From a bacterium (GTDB lineage: Bacteria; Patescibacteriota; Minisyncoccia; UBA6257; JAGOQP01), in contig JAKBUF010000004.1 in NCBI GenBank assembly GCA_021844025.1, positions 1 to 44,627 on the forward strand: DNA of 44,627 nt, in the 5' to 3' direction. Each line of letters starts with the position of its first letter. The stretch's first letter is position 1. Shown here piece by piece: positions 2,766 through 44,627 of the stretch. The notes beneath the pieces were generated by a model. The model had not been told where the DNA came from. It did no database searches and was given only the letters and a program-made list of their open reading frames with translations. The translations under genes were made by a program, and so were the position numbers.

Positions 2766-5327
2766 TTATTCCCAATGTATTTGTTTTTCAAAGAGTTTTA
2801 TATAAGTAGCTAGGAGTGGGTGATCGTGCAACTGAGGATCTCTTTGCATAAGATGTTGCACTGATTCATACACATCTTTTACCATGGTTGGGTTTTGCAG
2901 TGCTTCCATTGCTAAATCAGGAAGTCCTGTTTGTTCGGTTCCCAGAAATTGCCCCGGTCCACGGAATTTTAAATCCATCTCCGCAAGCTCAAATCCATTT
3001 TTTGCAGATATAAGCGCCTTGAGTCGATCAAGAGTTATTTTTGAGTGGCTGTCGGTAAATAAAAAACAGTATGATTGATGCTGTGCCCTACCCACTCGTC
3101 CGCGGAATTGATACAACTGTGAAAGCCCAAAATGTTCAGATCCTTCAATAATCATGAGTGTGGCGTTGGGCACATCTACCCCCACTTCAATCACTGAAGT
3201 GGCAACTAGAATGTCTAGTTCATGATCTTTAAATTTTTTCATTACCGTGTTTTTTTCTATTGCCTTTAGTTGCCCATGCAACATACCAACTCGTAACTGG
3301 GGAAATACAGTTTTTGATAATTTTTTATACTCATCTTCAACATTTTTAACATCTAGTTGTGCAAGTTGCCGCGGGGTGAGTTTTTGTTCCGGATCTGCGG
3401 GTTGAATGCGTGGGCAAATTACAAATACTTGTCGTCCTTCTTTTATCTGTGAGCGCACAAATGCGTATGCGGTTGCTCGGTGTTGTGCGGGGACAATACG
3501 GGTGTCTATTTTTTTACGATTTTTAGGTAATTCGTTAATGGTGGAAAGTTCTAAATCTCCCAGTAGGGTGAGTGCGAGCGTGCGGGGAATAGGAGTGGCA
3601 CTCATGCTGAGTAAATGTGGACTGTAGTTCCGATGCGAACGATGCAAATTAGATTCGAATAACACGAACGAAGAGTTTAAAATTCGTTTTGCTTTTAGAT
3701 ATTTTTGTTGGAAATCAATAAGAAGCCCAAGCTTTAAATTTTTTGATTTTAGATACCTCATGGTTTGCGCATAATCTTCTTTCGTGAAAAATGGTTTTGC
3801 TTTAACTTCGATAAGTATTTTCCCATCTATAATAAAATCAGCAAAGTTTGATTTTCTTCCACCCACCTCTATAGCGGATTCTCTTTCATACGGAATCTTT
3901 TTTTCTTTTAGTTGTTGTTCTAATTCATCTGCATATTGACGTTCTCGTGCAAATCGCCCTAATTTATCTTGTACGTTAAAGAAAATACCCTGCAATGTAT
4001 AAGACAATTCCTTTTCTACAATTTTTTCATCATCCGTATTTTGTTCGCCAAATTCGAGTAAATTCGCATTGTTTGCATCGAATAATAAAGCTCTCTGGGC
4101 TACGCCGAATCGATGTTGTTCGTCAATAATAACCAACCCTACTTCATTAAATGAAATATTTTTTTGTATAACCGCGTGAGTTCCAATGATGATTTTTATT
4201 TTCCCCGAAGCAATGTACGCACGCAATTCTTTTTTGGTAATTTCTCGTTCCAACCCTTTTCCTAAAAACAACACGGTACGCGATGCGGTTAGTAGCCCCA
4301 CCCCACCTTCAAACTCCTCAAAAAAATTGGTGAATGTGTGATAGTGCTGTTGTGCCAAAACTTCAGTTGGGGCCATAAATACTGCTTGTTTACCGTGTGA
4401 CGCAGTTACTAATGCTGCTAGTGCTGCCACCACGGTTTTTCCTGACCCTACATCTCCTTGTAGTAATCGATGTGTGGCATGTGGTAGGGCAATATCTTGT
4501 AATATGTCTTGCAACGCGTGTTGTTGCCCCTCGGTTAGTTCAAATGGTATATAGGAAAGATATTTCGATATTTGTTTGGAGGTGTGGGGGAGTGCATATG
4601 ATACACGACGAGTAATTTCGTTTTTTTGATTTGTTTTTATAAGTTGAAGTAAAAATAAATCTTGATACATAAATCGTTTCCGTGCCTGTTGTGTTTGCAA
4701 TAATGATTCGGGTTTGTGCATTTGTACAAACGCCTCAGCAAGTATGGGGAATGTATGCTGCTGCATGATGCTCTCGGGAAGAAACTCCTTAGATGTTTTG
4801 GCAATGGGTAGTACTTTTTCCATAACAAATCGGATTCCCTTAGAGGTAATTCCTTTTGTTTCTGAATATATAGGAACTAACCTACCGGTGTGTCGAGGAA
4901 TATATGAATCTCTTGAAATAATCTCAAATTCGGGAGACTGAAATTGAGCGCGTTTACCCGTAAATGAAACCTTGCCTGCAATGTTAATTGCAAGGCCTTC
5001 TTTTAATTGATTCAGTAAAAATCGTTGATTAAACCACACCGCTTCTGCTTTCCCGCTCTCATCAACAATACGAGCGGTAATAACTAGATATTTTTTCCAT
5101 TTAGTTTTTGATACGGAGAGTTTTTCAATGGTGCCGTGTATGGTGGCAATTTCATTTGGCTGTAGTTGCGCAATTGGTTTTATAGCAGAAAAATCTTGGT
5201 ATCGAAATGGAAAATAATATAAAAGATCTTTTACGGTTTTTAGTTGTAATTTTTCAAGTTTAGCGGCAAATAGAGGTCCAATGCCTTTTATATGTGTGAG
5301 TGGAGTTGATAAAGATGCCAAGTCCAT
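2766..5327 (-). CDS. recG: ATP-dependent DNA helicase RecG with inserted GxxExxY nuclease-like domain
   Basis: 853 residues. N-terminal wedge/OB part to about 250; Walker A GDVGSGKT at 291-298; DEQHRFGV at 402-409; SATPIPRT at 576-583; helicase motif VI QFRGRVGR at about 740-747. RecG remodels stalled forks and Holliday junctions. Between motif II and motif III, about residues 416-568 (genome about 3625-4080), lies an extra 140-150 residues absent from ordinary RecG. This insert matches the GxxExxY family, a PD-(D/E)XK-like fold: ARERQYADELEQQLKEKKI, then ADFIIDGKILIEVKAK with Asp and Glu-x-Lys, then a conserved Gln (YAQTMRYL). The frame is continuous and no intein splice residues are seen, so it appears to be a tolerated domain insertion. 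Start ATG 5327; no clear Shine-Dalgarno site. Confidence 0.93.
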   Translation of the reverse strand: MDLASLSTPLTHIKGIGPLFAAKLEKLQLKTVKDLLYYFPFRYQDFSAIKPIAQLQPNEIATIHGTIEKLSVSKTKWKKYLVITARIVDESGKAEAVWFNQRFLLNQLKEGLAINIAGKVSFTGKRAQFQSPEFEIISRDSYIPRHTGRLVPIYSETKGITSKGIRFVMEKVLPIAKTSKEFLPESIMQQHTFPILAEAFVQMHKPESLLQTQQARKRFMYQDLFLLQLIKTNQKNEITRRVSYALPHTSKQISKYLSYIPFELTEGQQHALQDILQDIALPHATHRLLQGDVGSGKTVVAALAALVTASHGKQAVFMAPTEVLAQQHYHTFTNFFEEFEGGVGLLTASRTVLFLGKGLEREITKKELRAYIASGKIKIIIGTHAVIQKNISFNEVGLVIIDEQHRFGVAQRALLFDANNANLLEFGEQNTDDEKIVEKELSYTLQGIFFNVQDKLGRFARERQYADELEQQLKEKKIPYERESAIEVGGRKSNFADFIIDGKILIEVKAKPFFTKEDYAQTMRYLKSKNLKLGLLIDFQQKYLKAKRILNSSFVLFESNLHRSHRNYSPHLLSMSATPIPRTLALTLLGDLELSTINELPKNRKKIDTRIVPAQHRATAYAFVRSQIKEGRQVFVICPRIQPADPEQKLTPRQLAQLDVKNVEDEYKKLSKTVFPQLRVGMLHGQLKAIEKNTVMKKFKDHELDILVATSVIEVGVDVPNATLMIIEGSEHFGLSQLYQFRGRVGRAQHQSYCFLFTDSHSKITLDRLKALISAKNGFELAEMDLKFRGPGQFLGTEQTGLPDLAMEALQNPTMVKDVYESVQHLMQRDPQLHDHPLLATYIKLFEKQIHWE

Positions 5328-32923: not shown

Positions 32924-33859
32924 ATGGCTCGTGTTATTGCAATTACCAATCAGAAACATAATATTTATACACCTCATAATAAAGGAGTTACGAAATTTAA
33001 ATCCCATCCATGTTTATGTGGTTGTGGCGAGATGGTCGTGGTCCATAAATATCCGAAAAAAGATGGTCGTGGATATGGTTATTTAGTAAATAGTTTTATT
33101 AGAGGACATGGAAAACGTGGAGTAGATGGGTATGATAAAGAAATTCATAGTCCTCGTCTTTGCGCGTGTGGCTGTGGAAATATTACAAATAAAAATGGTG
33201 GGAGATTTTATAGATTTTTAAAGGGGCATGAAAATGTAGGAAGAGTTCCTTGGAACAAGGGCAGACACTTGAGTGAGAGTTCTCGTGCTAAAATGAGCTT
33301 AGCTAAGAGGGGGATAGAACCCAAAAATAAGGTTAAGGTTGATTTGAGTGTATTATATAATTTATATGTTGATAAAAAACTAAATATATCTGAGGTTAGT
33401 AGATTAATAAATGTATCCGAGGATGTGATAAAAAATAGACTGAGAAAATTTGGTTGGTCTAGAACCACAAAAGAATCTTGTTCTCTACCTCGTTTTAAAA
33501 ATAAAATGAGACACATACGAGTGAAAGTTTTATCTTCAAATCCTGTTGTAGAATCACCAAATAAGCTCGAAAAATTGGTGTACGACGAATTATCAAATAG
33601 AAAGATTTATTACGAAAAGCAGGTTCCACTCTTTGATAAATTTGTTGTTGATGTTTTGTTCCCACGAAAAAAGGTCGTGTTAGAAATTTTTGGAAAATAT
33701 TGGCATAATAATCCTAAAATAAAGAAAAAAGATTTTTCAAAGAAAAAATATCTTGAGAAGTGCGGATACAGGGTTGAAGAACTGTGGGACTATCAAATTA
33801 AAAGTCTTGGTGTAGTTTCAGCCATTGGAAATGTTCTTAATAAATATAATCTAGTTTAA
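32924..33859 (+). CDS. Homing-endonuclease-like protein fused to the original parA start
   Basis: 311 residues. Residues 1-11 are MARVIAITNQK, the N-terminus of ParA (usual continuation GGVGKTT). Then come two Cys clusters, CLCGCGE (30-36) and CACGCGN (80-86), each followed by an RGH/KGH element; a NUMOD3-like motif WNKGRHLSESSRAKMSLAKR (110-129); an HTH (about 148-180); and a Vsr/DUF559-like PD-(D/E)XK nuclease (about 213-295) with Glu216, Asp243, Glu254 and His261 in LEKLV, VVDVLF and LEIFGKYWH. NUMOD3 and HTH modules target DNA in homing enzymes. The stop is 2 bp before the parA start. Reading: a mobile nuclease gene landed after parA codon 11, captured its start, and brought a replacement start for parA. 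Confidence 0.85.
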   Translation: MARVIAITNQKHNIYTPHNKGVTKFKSHPCLCGCGEMVVVHKYPKKDGRGYGYLVNSFIRGHGKRGVDGYDKEIHSPRLCACGCGNITNKNGGRFYRFLKGHENVGRVPWNKGRHLSESSRAKMSLAKRGIEPKNKVKVDLSVLYNLYVDKKLNISEVSRLINVSEDVIKNRLRKFGWSRTTKESCSLPRFKNKMRHIRVKVLSSNPVVESPNKLEKLVYDELSNRKIYYEKQVPLFDKFVVDVLFPRKKVVLEIFGKYWHNNPKIKKKDFSKKKYLEKCGYRVEELWDYQIKSLGVVSAIGNVLNKYNLV

Positions 33860-36194: not shown

Positions 36195-36584
36195 ATGAAA
36201 GATTTTGATCAATGGGATGAATTAAAAAAGAAAATTGAGATTGATAAAGATAGTCCTGAAAAATTTCCTAAAGAAAGAGAGGTTTGGATGAGTAATATTG
36301 GTAGAAATATTGGTTTTGAACAAAATGGAAGTGGGGATAATTTTTCTCGCCCCGTCCTAATTATAAAGAAGTTTAATAATCATATGTTCTGGACCGTCCC
36401 TCTTTCTACTAAACAAAAAGATTTTGATTTTTATTTTAATTTTATTGATTTAAATAATCAAAAAGTTTCTATCATCTTGGCCCAAATGAAATTAACAAGT
36501 GTCAAAAGATTAAAAAGAAAACTTTACGATATTCCCAATGAAATCTTTAATACAATAAAGCAAAAGATGCGGTCTTTCCTCTGA
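36195..36584 (+). CDS. MazF/PemK-like toxin
   Basis: 129 residues: EREVWMSNIGRNIGFEQNGS, RPVLIIKKFNNHMFWTVPLSTKQK, and IILAQMKLTSVKRLKRK match the PemK/MazF fold (a ribonuclease of type II toxin-antitoxin systems). A 30-residue helical N-terminal extension may be part of an antitoxin-like segment, since no separate antitoxin gene is seen upstream. A TATAAT lies about 40 nt before the ATG. Function as a toxin is inferred. Confidence 0.72.
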   Translation: MKDFDQWDELKKKIEIDKDSPEKFPKEREVWMSNIGRNIGFEQNGSGDNFSRPVLIIKKFNNHMFWTVPLSTKQKDFDFYFNFIDLNNQKVSIILAQMKLTSVKRLKRKLYDIPNEIFNTIKQKMRSFL

Positions 36585-38742: not shown

Positions 38743-39723
38743 GTGAATTGGATATTATTTATTACTAATAGTCTTGATGTGCACGCTGATGTCGTGCAAA
38801 AGCTTCTTTTAGAGAGGGGTGAGGATGTTATTCGTTTAAACACAGACTCTTTTTCTTCCGATAGGTTTAGATTGGTTTTTAATATTCATCAAGGAGAAAA
38901 CTCTCTTTCTTTTCTTGGGAAAAGGGTGAATCTTGCTGAAATTAAAAGTGTTTGGTATAGAAGACCTGAGTCCTTACAAACTAATATTTCTCACTCTGGT
39001 CAGAATGAGTTTGCTCAAAGAGAACTTAAGGAATTATTATTTCAGCTTTATTTTAATCTTCCGAACTCTTTTTGGGTTAGTGATTATATCTCACTAGAGA
39101 AATCGAGACGCAAATACTCTCAGTTATTAACTGCTCATAGCTGTGGCTTCTTTATTCCGAAAACCTGTATAACTAATGATCCCGATGAAGCTAAACGGTT
39201 CTTTGCGGAGTGTAATGAAAACATGATATATAAAACATTACACTTACCAATCATCCAACCGGATAAAAGTAATGAGAAGACGTTAGGAGTTCCAACTAGT
39301 CTTGTTACTAATAATCTTATAAACCAAATAAGTTTAATAACCGCAACCGGGGGGATATTTCAGGAATATGTTGAGAAGGATTATGAAATTAGAGTTACGG
39401 TTATAGGTAATCAGATTTTTTCTGCGAGAATTGATTCTCAAAATGATCTATCATCTAAGGTTGATTGGAGAGACGGAGTTTTCTACGGGAAGACCGACGT
39501 CTATGCTCATAAACTTCCAGCGGAAGTAGAGCAACGCTGTTTTGATGTTACAAAAAAGATGGGATTAAATTTCGGGGCGTTGGATCTTATAAAAACCCCC
39601 GATGGTGAATATTTTTTTCTAGAAATAAACCCAAATGGCCAATGGTTATGGATAGAGGAGTTAACAGGGCAACCGCTGGTTTGTACTATGGCGGATTTGC
39701 TTTCTAAACCACCATCAAAATAA
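38743..39723 (+). CDS. MvdC/MvdD-like ATP-grasp ligase (graspetide synthetase)
   Basis: 326 residues from GTG 38743, chosen because GGAGG (38733-38737) lies five bases before it. The N-terminal pre-ATP-grasp domain has SVWYRRPESL, the hallmark of graspetide ligases. The ATP-grasp core shows IYKTLHLPII, GIFQEYVEKDYEIRVTVIG, and FGALDLIKTPDGEYFFLEINPNGQWLWIE (Mg/ATP-binding Glu and Asn). Such enzymes use ATP to join Ser/Thr or Lys side chains of a precursor peptide to Asp/Glu side chains (omega-ester or amide rings). A 45-residue acidic peptide follows 18 bp later. Confidence 0.9.
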   Translation: MNWILFITNSLDVHADVVQKLLLERGEDVIRLNTDSFSSDRFRLVFNIHQGENSLSFLGKRVNLAEIKSVWYRRPESLQTNISHSGQNEFAQRELKELLFQLYFNLPNSFWVSDYISLEKSRRKYSQLLTAHSCGFFIPKTCITNDPDEAKRFFAECNENMIYKTLHLPIIQPDKSNEKTLGVPTSLVTNNLINQISLITATGGIFQEYVEKDYEIRVTVIGNQIFSARIDSQNDLSSKVDWRDGVFYGKTDVYAHKLPAEVEQRCFDVTKKMGLNFGALDLIKTPDGEYFFLEINPNGQWLWIEELTGQPLVCTMADLLSKPPSK

Positions 39724-39741
39724 ATAGAAAGGAGTGTAGAT

Positions 39742-39879
39742 ATGGAAAAAGAACAAATAATTGAGGTCTTTGCTCTATTGGTAGCAAAAGAGGATCCTCA
39801 AGATCTTTCTCCCAAAGATGTCCACGGATCGTATTCCAAGTCGACATACAAGGGTACCGACAGAGATGATTCTGACTAA
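39742..39879 (+). CDS. Putative graspetide precursor peptide
   Basis: 45 residues, AAAGGAG box at 39728-39734. The leader MEKEQIIEVFALLVAKEDPQ is followed by a core rich in Ser/Thr then Asp: GSYSKSTYKGTDRDDSD. Hydroxyl residues before a run of acids is the layout from which ATP-grasp enzymes make side-chain lactones. It sits between the ligase and a terminator. The core boundary and ring pattern are not known. Confidence 0.75.
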   Translation: MEKEQIIEVFALLVAKEDPQDLSPKDVHGSYSKSTYKGTDRDDSD

Positions 39880-39909
39880 AGAATAGTTAGTTTCTTGCCT
39901 CTTTGATAG

Positions 39910-39938
39910 TGCACCAGAGAAATTTGGTGCATTTTTTT
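39910..39938 (+). terminator. Rho-independent terminator after precursor gene
   Basis: TGCACCA-gagaaatt-TGGTGCA followed by seven T. Confidence 0.85.
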
Positions 39939-39961
39939 AGGTAGTGGGGTATTATATACCT

Positions 39962-40621
39962 ATGTTATTGTTAACTAAAAAACAGAGAAATAACTTTTCA
40001 AAAATACAACTATTTATTGTTGGAGAAATGCATGGCGCGAAAGAGAATATAAGAATTATTAAGGAACTTGTTAATATTCTCGATATTAATATTATCTGTT
40101 TTGAATTAGAAACAAAGTGGAACAAAGAATTTGCTCATTTTAATCGTAATAATTTTTTGTATAAATTAAAAAAGGAGCAGTGGATTTTGGATTCAGGTCT
40201 TTTTTCTTTGTCTCATGTTAACTTAGTCTCTTGGCTTTTAAGGCGCAAGAAGAGTGTGTGTGCTGTTCGTAAAGAGAAGAAAGATTGGAATGTATCGGAA
40301 AAAGAAACGGCATTGTATATTAATTCTCTTGCGCGGAAAAATCGGCCAGAGAGAATACTTGTTATTGTTGGTAATTCGCATGCTAGGAAAGGAACGTTTA
40401 CTTCAAAAGATGAATTTGGTAAAAAATATATTTATAAACCAATGCGTCTTTTTTTAAAAGATAAGGCTGTTAGTTTTTTGGTACGATATAGTAACTCTGT
40501 GGCCTATAATTTTGGAGCGATAGATCTTAAGGATGATGTTGCTTACAAAAAACTAGAAGGTTTATCTATGAGAGTAATTCCCTCGTCTAATAGTAGTTTC
40601 GAATATGATATTCTCGTATAA
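39962..40621 (+). CDS. TraB/ChaN/EreA-superfamily protein
   Basis: 219 residues from ATG 39962; a GTG at 39944 is an alternative. Motifs: LFIVGEMHGAKENIRII (GExHG), IICFELE, and VIVGNSHARKGTF (GNxHxxxG). These match the fold shared by ChaN, TraB/PrgY, Tiki and erythromycin esterase, which includes metal-dependent proteases and esterases that act on peptides or lactones. Next to a graspetide cluster it could trim the peptide or open ester rings (immunity). That role is inference. Confidence 0.65.
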   Translation: MLLLTKKQRNNFSKIQLFIVGEMHGAKENIRIIKELVNILDINIICFELETKWNKEFAHFNRNNFLYKLKKEQWILDSGLFSLSHVNLVSWLLRRKKSVCAVRKEKKDWNVSEKETALYINSLARKNRPERILVIVGNSHARKGTFTSKDEFGKKYIYKPMRLFLKDKAVSFLVRYSNSVAYNFGAIDLKDDVAYKKLEGLSMRVIPSSNSSFEYDILV

Positions 40622-40648
40622 TATTTGGTTTACCTTGGGTTACACAAT

Positions 40649-41494
40649 ATGATAAACCGAGAGCTTGAAAAAATATATAACAAGATTGTTGATGTTTATC
40701 CATTTCTCAGTGAAAAGGAACGTATTGATTTTGAGAAAAAGGCAAAAAATCTTATAAAGAAAACTCTGTTTAGTAAGAAGGGTGTTGGTTTCCTGTTAAA
40801 CCTTTTAAAAAATCCGCACGCATATTTATGGGTATGGAAAAAACCATCACTAGCCAAAATAAGAAAAAAAAGAAAGGTTTTATCTAAAATAGAAAATAGA
40901 ACTCTCAGCCTTACCATACCTTCGTGGTCTGGAGAGTTAGGAGTTTTAGATAAGAAATTAATAGATATATGTGTAAAAAATATTGAGAGATATGATGGCA
41001 TACTTATTGATGTCCGCAATAATCAAGGGGGGAATTCCCGCATAGCTCATAGCTTTGCCAGTATCTTTTTTAAGACCCCGTGTGTCTATGGGAAATTTAT
41101 AAAAAGAAAAGAGGGGGGTAAATTATTTTCTGTTACGGCGGTGCTTCAACCAAACAGTGAAATTTATCTTGATAAGCCAATAGTTATTCTTACTTCGAAT
41201 AAATGTTTTAGTTCCAACGAGTTATTTTTGGCTCCATTCAAAGTTTCGGGTAGAGCAATTCTAATAGGAGAAAAAACACGGGGAGGGAGTGGAAATCCGA
41301 TGCAAGAAGAAGTGAATCTAGGACATAAAAAGATTATTGTTCTGATTCCAACCTGGAGATTCTTTTTGGCGCGAAACAATGATCCTATAGAAAAAACAAA
41401 AATTAATCCAGATATTATATATAAAAAAAAGAATATACTTAATTTTGCTGTGAAATATTTGCAGGAAAAATCCAGTCACAGCAAGTCTTCTTAA
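40649..41494 (+). CDS. S41-family peptidase
   Basis: 281 residues from ATG 40649; an upstream TTG is unlikely. The C-terminal core shows GILIDVRNNQGGNSRIAHSF, VILTSNKCFSSNELFLAPFK (catalytic Ser region) and GEKTRGGSGNP, typical of C-terminal-processing (tail-specific) proteases. No PDZ domain or signal peptide is obvious. It may process the precursor peptide of the nearby graspetide locus; the link is by position only. Confidence 0.78.
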   Translation: MINRELEKIYNKIVDVYPFLSEKERIDFEKKAKNLIKKTLFSKKGVGFLLNLLKNPHAYLWVWKKPSLAKIRKKRKVLSKIENRTLSLTIPSWSGELGVLDKKLIDICVKNIERYDGILIDVRNNQGGNSRIAHSFASIFFKTPCVYGKFIKRKEGGKLFSVTAVLQPNSEIYLDKPIVILTSNKCFSSNELFLAPFKVSGRAILIGEKTRGGSGNPMQEEVNLGHKKIIVLIPTWRFFLARNNDPIEKTKINPDIIYKKKNILNFAVKYLQEKSSHSKSS

Positions 41495-42275: not shown

Positions 42276-43196
42276 ATGAAAACAACAAAATTGTTTTTTG
42301 TTTTGGCTTCTGTCTTGATTTTTATTGTGTTGTTGCCAAGTCTTGTTTTTTCTCAAACCACCCAAAGTACTGCGGATCCGCAGAACGACTGGGTAGACAC
42401 CAATTCGTGGGTTGCATCTATTCCTCGGGCTCCATTCTATCAACAGAAGGTATATCTTTATAACGATGCTAGGAAGCATTATCCGGTGCTCGTATTTGAG
42501 CAGATGGACAGTAGTGTGACTATTGACGGAGCTACTTATTCTCAATACTACTACACCAGGACCAATTTCAATACCCCGAGCTCAATGCCTGCATATGTTG
42601 AAGTTGAGGGATGTATAGAAAATATCTCAACAAACCCCGATATTCAGATACGTCTGTCCGTTTATTTTGCTAATAGTAAAACGGGAGAATGGTCTGAGTC
42701 TGGAACACAGGTCATTTCAACCGATTGGAAAAAATATATATTTGATTTTAACAGACCGAGTGTTATGAAAAAATATAATATTTTTTCAATTACTGTTGGG
42801 ATGTATCCTGCGAATGGTAGGAGGGTGTTTTCGAAGGTGGGGTTGTATCAAATTAATTACTATGATCCCTCTATGAATCTCACGTGGAACTATAATCTTA
42901 TCACCGATGTTCCACGTGGAACCTCAACTCCAACCGAGTTTAAACTTGAACAAAACTACCCCAATCCATTTAATCCGGTAACAATTATAAAGTTCAAAGT
43001 TCCAAGTTCTCAAGTGGTGACTTTGAAAATCTATGACTTACTGGGCAGAGAAGTTGCTACTCTGGTGAATGAAGAAAAAGCTCCGGGTAGCTACGAAGTT
43101 AAATTTGACGGAAGCAATCTTGCAAGTGGGATGTATATCTACCAATTGCAAGCGGGCAATATGGTCATCAGCAAGAAGATGATGTTGATGAAGTAA
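42276..43196 (+). CDS. Secreted protein with T9SS type A C-terminal signal
   Basis: 306 residues. Signal peptide (about 1-27, ending FSQ), a beta-rich region of unknown kind (about 30-210), a short linker, then a textbook type IX sorting domain: LEQNYPNPFNPVTIIKFKVP, YDLLGREVATLVNEEKAPGS, NLASGMYIYQLQAG and KKMMLMK. AGGAG lies before the ATG. Type IX secretion belongs to Bacteroidota/Ignavibacteria; CPR cells are not known to have it. The gene is therefore probably acquired, or the tail is used differently. A parS-like site lies in the linker. Confidence 0.85.
   Translation: MKTTKLFFVLASVLIFIVLLPSLVFSQTTQSTADPQNDWVDTNSWVASIPRAPFYQQKVYLYNDARKHYPVLVFEQMDSSVTIDGATYSQYYYTRTNFNTPSSMPAYVEVEGCIENISTNPDIQIRLSVYFANSKTGEWSESGTQVISTDWKKYIFDFNRPSVMKKYNIFSITVGMYPANGRRVFSKVGLYQINYYDPSMNLTWNYNLITDVPRGTSTPTEFKLEQNYPNPFNPVTIIKFKVPSSQVVTLKIYDLLGREVATLVNEEKAPGSYEVKFDGSNLASGMYIYQLQAGNMVISKKMMLMK
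42908..42923. promoter_or_regulatory. parS-like centromere site
   Basis: TGTTCCACGTGGAACC: a 14-bp palindrome GTTCCACGTGGAAC matching the bacterial parS consensus (TGTTNCACGTGNAACA) at all but the last base. A second half-site, CACGTGGAAC, lies about 25 bp upstream. parA/parB are 7 kb away in this window. Confidence 0.65.
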
Positions 43197-43396: not shown

Positions 43397-43597
43397 ATGA
43401 AATCTCAGGGTTCTTCTGCCGTAACCGAAGAACAAACCTTGAAGGGTAAGGTAAATATCATCAAGCCGTTTCCATTGCTTTTTGCGGAGCACATGGAATC
43501 CAAAGGAATTCTTCGTCGGGGATTTGAGATTTATGACGATCCCACTACAGTTTCCACAACCGATGATCACGAAGATGCGGAAAGTGACGAATCTTGA
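43397..43597 (+). CDS. Second graspetide precursor peptide
   Basis: 66 residues from ATG 43397, chosen because GGAGG (43384-43388) precedes it; an in-frame ATG at 43382 is too early. The leader contains KPFPLLFAEHME, close to the PFFxxFLE leader helix that graspetide ligases bind in microviridin systems. The C-terminus is a Thr/Ser then acidic core: YDDPTTVSTTDDHEDAESDE. A terminator follows, then an opposite-strand TPR gene, then a second ATP-grasp gene (44373). Confidence 0.78.
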   Translation: MKSQGSSAVTEEQTLKGKVNIIKPFPLLFAEHMESKGILRRGFEIYDDPTTVSTTDDHEDAESDES

Positions 43598-43618: not shown

Positions 43619-43645
43619 GAGGCGACCTAAGATCGCCTCTTTTTT
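43619..43645. terminator. Rho-independent terminator
   Basis: GAGGCGA-cctaaga-TCGCCTC then TTTTTT. It overlaps the end of the convergent TPR gene. Confidence 0.88.
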
Positions 43646-44322
43646 ATGAGAGGCAATGGACTTTCTGAATTAGCAAATAGTTCCCGGACCTTTTTTCCCC
43701 AAGGAGTTTTTTTGAATGATGCGGTGGTATCTTTTTGAAATAATCTCATTCCGATTGGTGCATACCTTCTCGATTTTTTAAATTGATTGGTTAGCCGATA
43801 AAAGTTCACTATATTTACGTATACTCCCCAATTTTTTTCATCCTCTCTAAGTCCTTTTTTTAACCACTGCTCTGCCTTCTTATATTCTCTTAACGATTCA
43901 TATACCAAGCCAACATTTTGAGTATATATTCCTTTTTTCCCCCGTTTTTGTGCAAACTTATATGCCTGCTGTACATAGAAAATTGCCCGTTTATTTTTTC
44001 TGTGCCACCAAACTCTTCCAATTCCCCATAATGCTTTATGTGAATGTGGATATTTTTTGAGAACCAGATGATAGATTTTTAATGCTTTTCTTTCAAGATC
44101 ACGTCGCGCCTTTTGATTTTTCATTTGTAGCGCATAATGGTCGTATAGTAATCCGAATTTGCACATCAATTCTTCATCAAAAACAGTAAGATGCTTTGAA
44201 AAATATTTCTCGAATTTTTTTACTCCATCCGCATATTTATATGTGTTCGTATAACTATCAAACACCCCTTTTAAATATTTATGATCTTTTTTTGAGATGA
44301 GTGTATTGACTATTTTTTCCAT
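43627..44322 (-). CDS. TPR-repeat protein
   Basis: 231 residues, all-helical with several TPR-like pairs: ALKIYHLVLKKYPHSHKALW, GIYTQNVGLVYESLREYKKAEQWLKKGLREDE in pieces, NIVNFYRLTNQFKKSRRYAP. The C-terminus is basic. A likely scaffold for protein contacts. It is set between the second precursor and the second ligase but on the other strand; a link to peptide maturation is not shown. Confidence 0.72.
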   Translation of the reverse strand: MEKIVNTLISKKDHKYLKGVFDSYTNTYKYADGVKKFEKYFSKHLTVFDEELMCKFGLLYDHYALQMKNQKARRDLERKALKIYHLVLKKYPHSHKALWGIGRVWWHRKNKRAIFYVQQAYKFAQKRGKKGIYTQNVGLVYESLREYKKAEQWLKKGLREDEKNWGVYVNIVNFYRLTNQFKKSRRYAPIGMRLFQKDTTASFKKTPWGKKVRELFANSESPLPLIKKRRS

Positions 44323-44372: not shown

Positions 44373-44627
44373 ATGAAAAATATTATCTTAATCGTTACTA
44401 GTTCTGAGGAACCTAACATTAAAAATGTTACTCCATTTCTTGAAAAAATGGAAGCGAAAATTGTTAGAGTAAACAACGATCTACTTTTTCACGATTATGA
44501 TCCCGTAACCTTTGGTCTTGTTAAAAATAATTGGATGTTATCTATCGGAGACGAGAGCATTTATCCATCTGATGTGAAGAGTATTTGGTATAGGAGACCC
44601 CATTTGCCAAAAATCAACGAATCGGTT
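44373..44627 (+). CDS. Second ATP-grasp ligase, N-terminus (partial)
   Basis: The first 85 residues of a gene cut by the window edge; AGGAG lies six bases before ATG 44373. MKNIILIVTSSEEPNIKNVTP and, at the end, SDVKSIWYRRPHLPK mirror the pre-ATP-grasp domain of the 38743 ligase (SVWYRRPESL). It probably acts on the 43397 precursor. The catalytic part is outside the window. Confidence 0.75.
   Translation, partial: MKNIILIVTSSEEPNIKNVTPFLEKMEAKIVRVNNDLLFHDYDPVTFGLVKNNWMLSIGDESIYPSDVKSIWYRRPHLPKINESV

Follow-up and report, generated by a model that had tools for sequence, protein, structure and literature searches.

Two probable graspetide clusters lie side by side on a contig of a Parcubacteria-group CPR genome

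Introduction

Graspetide clusters and their precursors have already been reported in two CPR branches (Makarova et al. 2022, PMC8939145). There, the neighboring genes encode TPR proteins in branch 1 and Tiki/TraB-family proteins in branch 2, the branch 1 core reads TxxxTx(6-10)Dx(1-4)D, a Phhx(1,2)h leader motif is present in only about half of the precursors, and no precursor could be found at the majority of branch 2 loci. Further graspetide groups from candidate phyla are described in a 2026 survey (PMC13097080). In microviridin, the core TxKYPSDxEE is closed by Thr1-Asp7 and Ser6-Glu9 esters and by an amide from Lys to the last Glu (PMC7823629).

Here we analyze the window, the whole 44,627-nucleotide stretch that constitutes contig C7 of a 528-kb genome (25 contigs, 90% complete). 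An initial annotation had proposed a graspetide-type RiPP locus in this CPR genome; the locus is real, and there appear to be two clusters, A and B, the second of which that annotation did not include. The presence of graspetides in CPR is not in itself new, since Makarova et al. had reported them. The loci described there and ours are alike in their CPR hosts, MvdC/D-type ligases, and short, diverse precursors; by description, cluster A resembles branch 2 in its Tiki/TraB-fold neighbor, and cluster B resembles branch 1 in its TPR protein, its leader of the Phhx(1,2)h type, and a core of the form TxxxTx(6-10)D, whereas precursor A departs from them in lacking a Phhx(1,2)h leader.

Results

Ligase A (38743..39723, + strand, 326 aa) begins with a GTG at 38743, preceded by GGAGG, and its stop codon ends at 39723. 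It had been read as an MvdC/MvdD-type ATP-grasp ligase from its WYRRP and NPNGQW blocks; both blocks are found, and the assignment is borne out by matches to PF21068 (the MvdD pre-ATP-grasp domain, 4.6e-13), TIGR04187 (1.2e-67), MvdD (1e-57), and MvdC (5e-57), with the NCBIfam scores lying below the curated cut-offs. The family profile leads to the solved graspetide enzymes AMdnB 7m4s (4e-85), 5ig8/5ig9, and CdnC 7mgv, with 7drm likewise among the structural relatives, and D281, E294, and N296 are invariant in 14 relatives. These profile matches, structural relatives, and invariant residues identify an MvdC/MvdD-type graspetide synthetase that includes the pre-ATP-grasp domain, a defining feature of a graspetide locus. 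It is improbable that the ATP-grasp protein is instead a RimK-like ligase that modifies or extends another protein or peptide, with the small ORF beside it incidental: a PF08443 (RimK) match at 1e-6 and the sub-cut-off NCBIfam scores point that way, but the MvdD pre-ATP-grasp domain is there, the MvdD and MvdC scores are far above that for RimK, and the small ORF is kept in place, leader, and core with the ligase clade.

Graspetide-type ligases occur in 22 of the 244 genomes of the order and in 16 of 380 genomes sampled from the phylum, and the trait is thus patchy. In the ligase tree, the window ligase groups with L029/L050, L049, and L030/L051 (clade A, SH-aLRT 100), and the sister of clade A comprises L031/L055, L052, and L053 (support 93). 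Ligase relatives at 28-36% identity are encoded by 13 viral contigs; a phage-borne copy was considered and rejected, none of these contigs holding a close relative. PADLOC defence models returned no match for the ligase, for the EreC/ChaN-fold hydrolase, or for the S41 peptidase discussed below. A DUF6624 gene, possibly the equivalent of the cluster 23 family that marks Makarova branch 2 loci (to which the paper gives no Pfam name), lies by the L052 ligase and, with a score below the cut-off, by that of L158; no gene of this type was seen in cluster A of the window.

Precursor A (39742..39879, + strand, 45 aa) starts with an ATG at 39742, 18 nt past the ligase stop, with GAAAGGAG upstream; its leader reads IIEVFALLVA and its core is approximately STYKGTDRDDSD. 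An intrinsic-terminator-like hairpin-T site (39908..39933, + strand) lies directly 3' of the gene, and the L049/L050 peptide gene is likewise followed by a hairpin and T; across the region, six terminator-like sites are observed against 3.5 expected. A small ORF directly follows the ligase in all six distinct clade members and shares the leader [VI]FAx[LVI]xA, which, when 11,212 ORFs of up to 110 aa were scanned, gave 15 matches, all downstream of clade ligases, and none in any other short ORF. The three closest members also share the core [ST]T[YW]KG[ST]DxDD (in shorter form, [YW]KG[ST]DxDD); they are divergent, their ligases being 50-53% identical to the window ligase; the three peptides of the sister clade end in SWTGQGSFKHQDD, SWTGQGSSKHRDD, and SWSTGPNGKQDPDD. 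At the DNA level, the core pattern is found in the 244 genomes at four A-type loci and at two places that are not precursors, in G406 and G614, which we discarded as chance matches: one is inside a 343-aa protein and the other falls in no matching ORF. Between L049 and L050, 30 of 976 bases differ in the ligase region, and the peptide gene is identical.

The initial annotation had staked its reading of the 45-residue peptide as a graspetide precursor on finding a conserved small peptide next to homologous ligases. The computational half of this check was run and came out in its favor, because leader, place, and core are conserved with the ligase clade, a homologous peptide standing beside every clade-A ligase and conservation with the ligase extending to six of six clade members. 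Precursors A and B both show what is expected of graspetide precursors, namely a place beside a ligase, a leader, and Ser/Thr/Lys donors followed by Asp/Glu acceptors. Judged from its sequence conservation, the pairing of ligase A with precursor A is very probably real. The leader IIEVFALLVA, having no such Pro, does not fit the Makarova signature, which is still allowed given that the motif marks only about half of the published precursors.

The window core, T-Y-K-G-T-D-R-D-D, keeps the microviridin donor/acceptor order (T-x-K..S-D-x-E-E) with one residue fewer. Cluster A is like the microviridin system (MdnA/MvdE with MdnB/C) in ligase family and fold as well, but its core (TxKG[ST]DxDD) has no Pro and has Asp for Glu, TxKGTDRDD stands in place of TxKxPSD and VFALLVA in place of the PFFARFL leader, and a single ligase is complete. 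The earlier remark that the core does not match the microviridin pattern is thus right as to the exact motif, and the donor/acceptor order is nevertheless kept. Predicted links would be Thr35-Asp40 and Thr39-Asp42 esters, with Lys37-Asp43 as a possible amide. With marinostatin, precursor A has in common a short core in which Thr and Ser esters to Asp are possible (PMC7823629), but the leader and core sequences differ and PFFARFL is not present.

The sequence would thus most likely correspond to a contracted microviridin or a marinostatin-like core, and a new ring topology is possible. The sister-clade cores (SWTGQGSxKHxDD, SWSTGPNGKQDPDD) differ from that of the window, so that only three of the six members fit and the microviridin-like reading may be a coincidence. 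Microviridins require two ligases for their esters plus amide; the single complete ligase in cluster A and the differing sister-clade cores together weaken the contracted-microviridin reading. We give an even chance to a bicyclic marinostatin-like or other hairpin topology in place of a contracted tricyclic microviridin: the one complete ligase, the additional acceptors offered by the C-terminal DSD/DD, and the strongly different sister cores speak for it, but Thr, Lys, Ser/Thr, Asp, Asp, and Asp follow in microviridin order in three of the three close relatives, and some single synthetases make both esters and amides, according to the 2026 survey (PMC13097080).

The next gene encodes an EreC/ChaN/Tiki-fold hydrolase-like protein (39944..40621, + strand, 225 aa) for which a Pfam search gave no match of its own. 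A homologue passes the PF04187 (ChaN/Tiki) cut-off, and the AlphaFold model (pLDDT 83.8) is matched by Foldseek to EreC 6xcq (4.7e-6, TMq 0.66) and ChaN 2g5g (4e-5), which upholds the earlier TraB/ChaN/EreA-like assignment. Invariant in eight homologues are G27-E28-x-H30-G31 (GExHG), E54, and G143-N144-x-H146 (GNxH), so that the protein has both the fold and the GExH ... E ... GNxH set of the Ere/ChaN/Tiki superfamily. EreC catalysis depends on H50, E78, and H289 with E47 (PMC7979712), and by order and motif H30, E54, H146, and E28 would be their counterparts. The likeness to the superfamily thus extends to the fold and the counterparts of three catalytic residues, whereas the 225-aa protein is shorter, about 10% identical, and has ExH, not ExxH. 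The family occurs in seven of the 244 genomes of the order (G000, the genome studied here; G389; G118; G534, where a contig break divides the gene; G599; G432; and G415), in seven of seven cases beside a graspetide ligase, which marks the protein as a dedicated part of the cluster; by our own arithmetic, which assumes a random draw and ignores relatedness, the chance of a complete overlap with the 22 ligase genomes is ~2e-8.

We posit that the EreC/ChaN-fold protein acts on precursor A, either by releasing the leader or by hydrolyzing esters in self-protection. A serious possibility, although we put it somewhat below an even chance, is that the protein is no leader protease but a macrolactone esterase, with ring opening serving self-immunity or recycling. 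The top structural match is the erythromycin esterase EreC, a macrolactone hydrolase; the putative counterparts of EreC H50, E78, and H289 are invariant; and the family is strictly linked to ester-forming ligases. However, the TMq is only 0.66 and the identity 10%, an additional lobe is present in EreC, the spacing within GExH is off by one from the EreC ExxH, the relatives by fold include Tiki-type proteases and the haem-binding ChaN, and Makarova et al. (PMC8939145) regard Tiki/TraB neighbors as likely maturation peptidases.

The S41 peptidase gene that follows (40625..41494, + strand) is genuine (PF03572, 1.1e-18). No homologue was found near related ligases, so that it is weakly linked to the cluster, by position alone, and we rejected it as a fixed component; of the earlier claim of an S41 protease in the cluster, the gene stands and conservation beside related ligases does not. 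Neither an exporter dedicated to the product nor a C39-ABC transporter was observed among the cluster genes, and of two C39-like matches in the genome neither is fused to an ABC transporter.

Cluster B reaches the contig end. Precursor B (43397..43597, + strand, 66 aa) has the leader KPFPLLFAE, which is close to the microviridin PFFARFL and fits the Phhx(1,2)h signature (KPFPLLFA), and the core IYDDPTTVSTTDDHEDAESDES; it is not a microviridin precursor by motif, its leader being PFPLLFAE and its sequence containing no TxKxPSD. A hairpin-T site resembling an intrinsic terminator (43619..43639, + strand) lies 3' of it, and an antisense gene for a 231-aa TPR-repeat protein (43627..44322, - strand) separates it from ligase B (44373..44627, + strand), whose first 85 aa are encoded before the contig edge and match TIGR04187 (6e-4) and the L033 ligase (37% identity, E 6e-12). 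The remainder of ligase B was not found elsewhere in the genome, and placing it in the tree was abandoned, the fragment being too short (25% of columns). Precursor B has homologues in L033/L104 (5e-9) and L163 (5.9e-9), and the same leader class appears in further loci; TPR homologues occupy the corresponding place in L033, L163 (1e-53), L035, and L036. The order of peptide, antisense TPR gene, and ligase is repeated in L033/L104, L163, L036, and L035; of these, L033/L104 and L163 have the close precursor homologues. Ligase A and the incomplete ligase B are 5 kb apart, and at other loci each is kept together with its own precursor. Near cluster-B-type ligases, a radical SAM gene (PF04055) at 9190-10566 of L163 is a candidate tailoring enzyme, and genes of similar appearance lie at 12086-13486 of L163 and 9747-10880 of L033; none was seen in the window up to the contig end.

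The host is a CPR organism of the Parcubacteria group, probably with an epibiotic lifestyle. The contig encodes rpoB, rpoC, parA, and parB; its ParA and ParB are ~69-86% identical to those of the same-genus genomes G380 and G381, and the named relatives with ligase loci are Colwellbacteria, Paceibacterota, Wolfebacteria, and Nomurabacteria. A protein with a T9SS sorting tail, encoded at 42276-43196 between the clusters, where a 93-aa ORF also lies, could suggest misbinning or a chimeric contig end, the cluster having come from a Bacteroidota-like organism. We consider this highly improbable: the contig carries CPR rpoBC, parAB lies 3 kb upstream, the clade-A ligases and their best-supported tree neighbors all belong to CPR or same-order relatives, and homologous T9SS-tail genes lie near parAB in both G380, where a counterpart of the 93-aa gene precedes the homologue, and G381. 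No graspetide ligase was found in G380 or G381; the T9SS-tail and 93-aa genes, having counterparts near parAB in these ligase-free genomes, are background and were rejected as cluster components. A second T9SS sorting-tail protein of this CPR genome is encoded on another contig (G000:C24:12807-13034), and at L036 and L160, too, similar genes lie close to a graspetide ligase.

Elsewhere in the window, a diversity-generating retroelement (237-2762) comprises a target ORF (237-926) that contains a variable repeat (789-920), a 132-nt template copy (1261-1392) 83% identical to that repeat, bAvd (1394-1903, - strand; PF22296, 7.8e-14), and a reverse transcriptase (1767-2762; PF00078, 6e-25). The adjacent RecG helicase (2766-5327, - strand) contains a PDDEXK_3 nuclease-like domain between its helicase halves, at residues about 440-545. 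Immediately upstream of parA, a homing-endonuclease-like ORF (32924-33859; DUF559, PADLOC HEase) starts with MARVIAITN, a repeat of the ParA start, as if the element had duplicated the start of parA. Between parB and the graspetide clusters lies a PemK/MazF-type toxin gene (36195-36584; PF02452) with no obvious antitoxin.

Discussion

The observations comprise the gene identities, their co-conservation, and the hydrolase fold with its catalytic-type residues, and two graspetide clusters side by side are, with good confidence, the best explanation of the whole. How the two clusters work, from the chemistry and the ring pattern to export and function, we infer as follows. Ligase A would bind the hydrophobic leader helix VFALLVA of the 45-aa peptide and phosphorylate Asp side chains in its C-terminal core, whereupon Thr/Ser, and perhaps Lys, side chains would attack to form ester, and perhaps amide, rings. 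Cluster B would use the same chemistry with its own ligase, its own peptide, and the TPR protein. Export of the product is probable, and it would act on proteases or cells outside. The two adjacent clusters most likely occupy a variable part of a Parcubacteria-group CPR chromosome, downstream of parAB, and have been gained and lost independently of the intervening genes, since those genes persist near parAB in ligase-free relatives.

What appears to be new, set apart from the published loci by their descriptions, is the precursor family of the small, previously uncharacterized clade A, its non-proline leader, the dedicated hydrolase, and the adjoining of two cluster types. A bolder proposal, which we regard as rather unlikely, is that cluster A represents a distinct graspetide class of CPR epibionts, in which a proline-free leader would direct formation of a contracted, Asp-only microviridin-like cage and a dedicated Ere-fold macrolactone esterase would reopen its esters for producer immunity. 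We know of no earlier ring-opening immunity enzyme paired with graspetides; if the proposal is true, the Ere-fold esterase would be the first.

CPR graspetides have so far been predictions only, and here ligase, precursor family, and hydrolase are joined by conservation. The locus supplies precursors for CPR ligases with a Tiki/TraB-type neighbor, a type that has mostly lacked them, and its ligase, peptide, and hydrolase form a compact three-gene set of ~1.9 kb that is suited to expression in E. coli. Two questions thereby become testable: in which peptide a reduced-genome epibiont invests, and whether ester-linked RiPPs can be substrates of a protein with the erythromycin-esterase fold.
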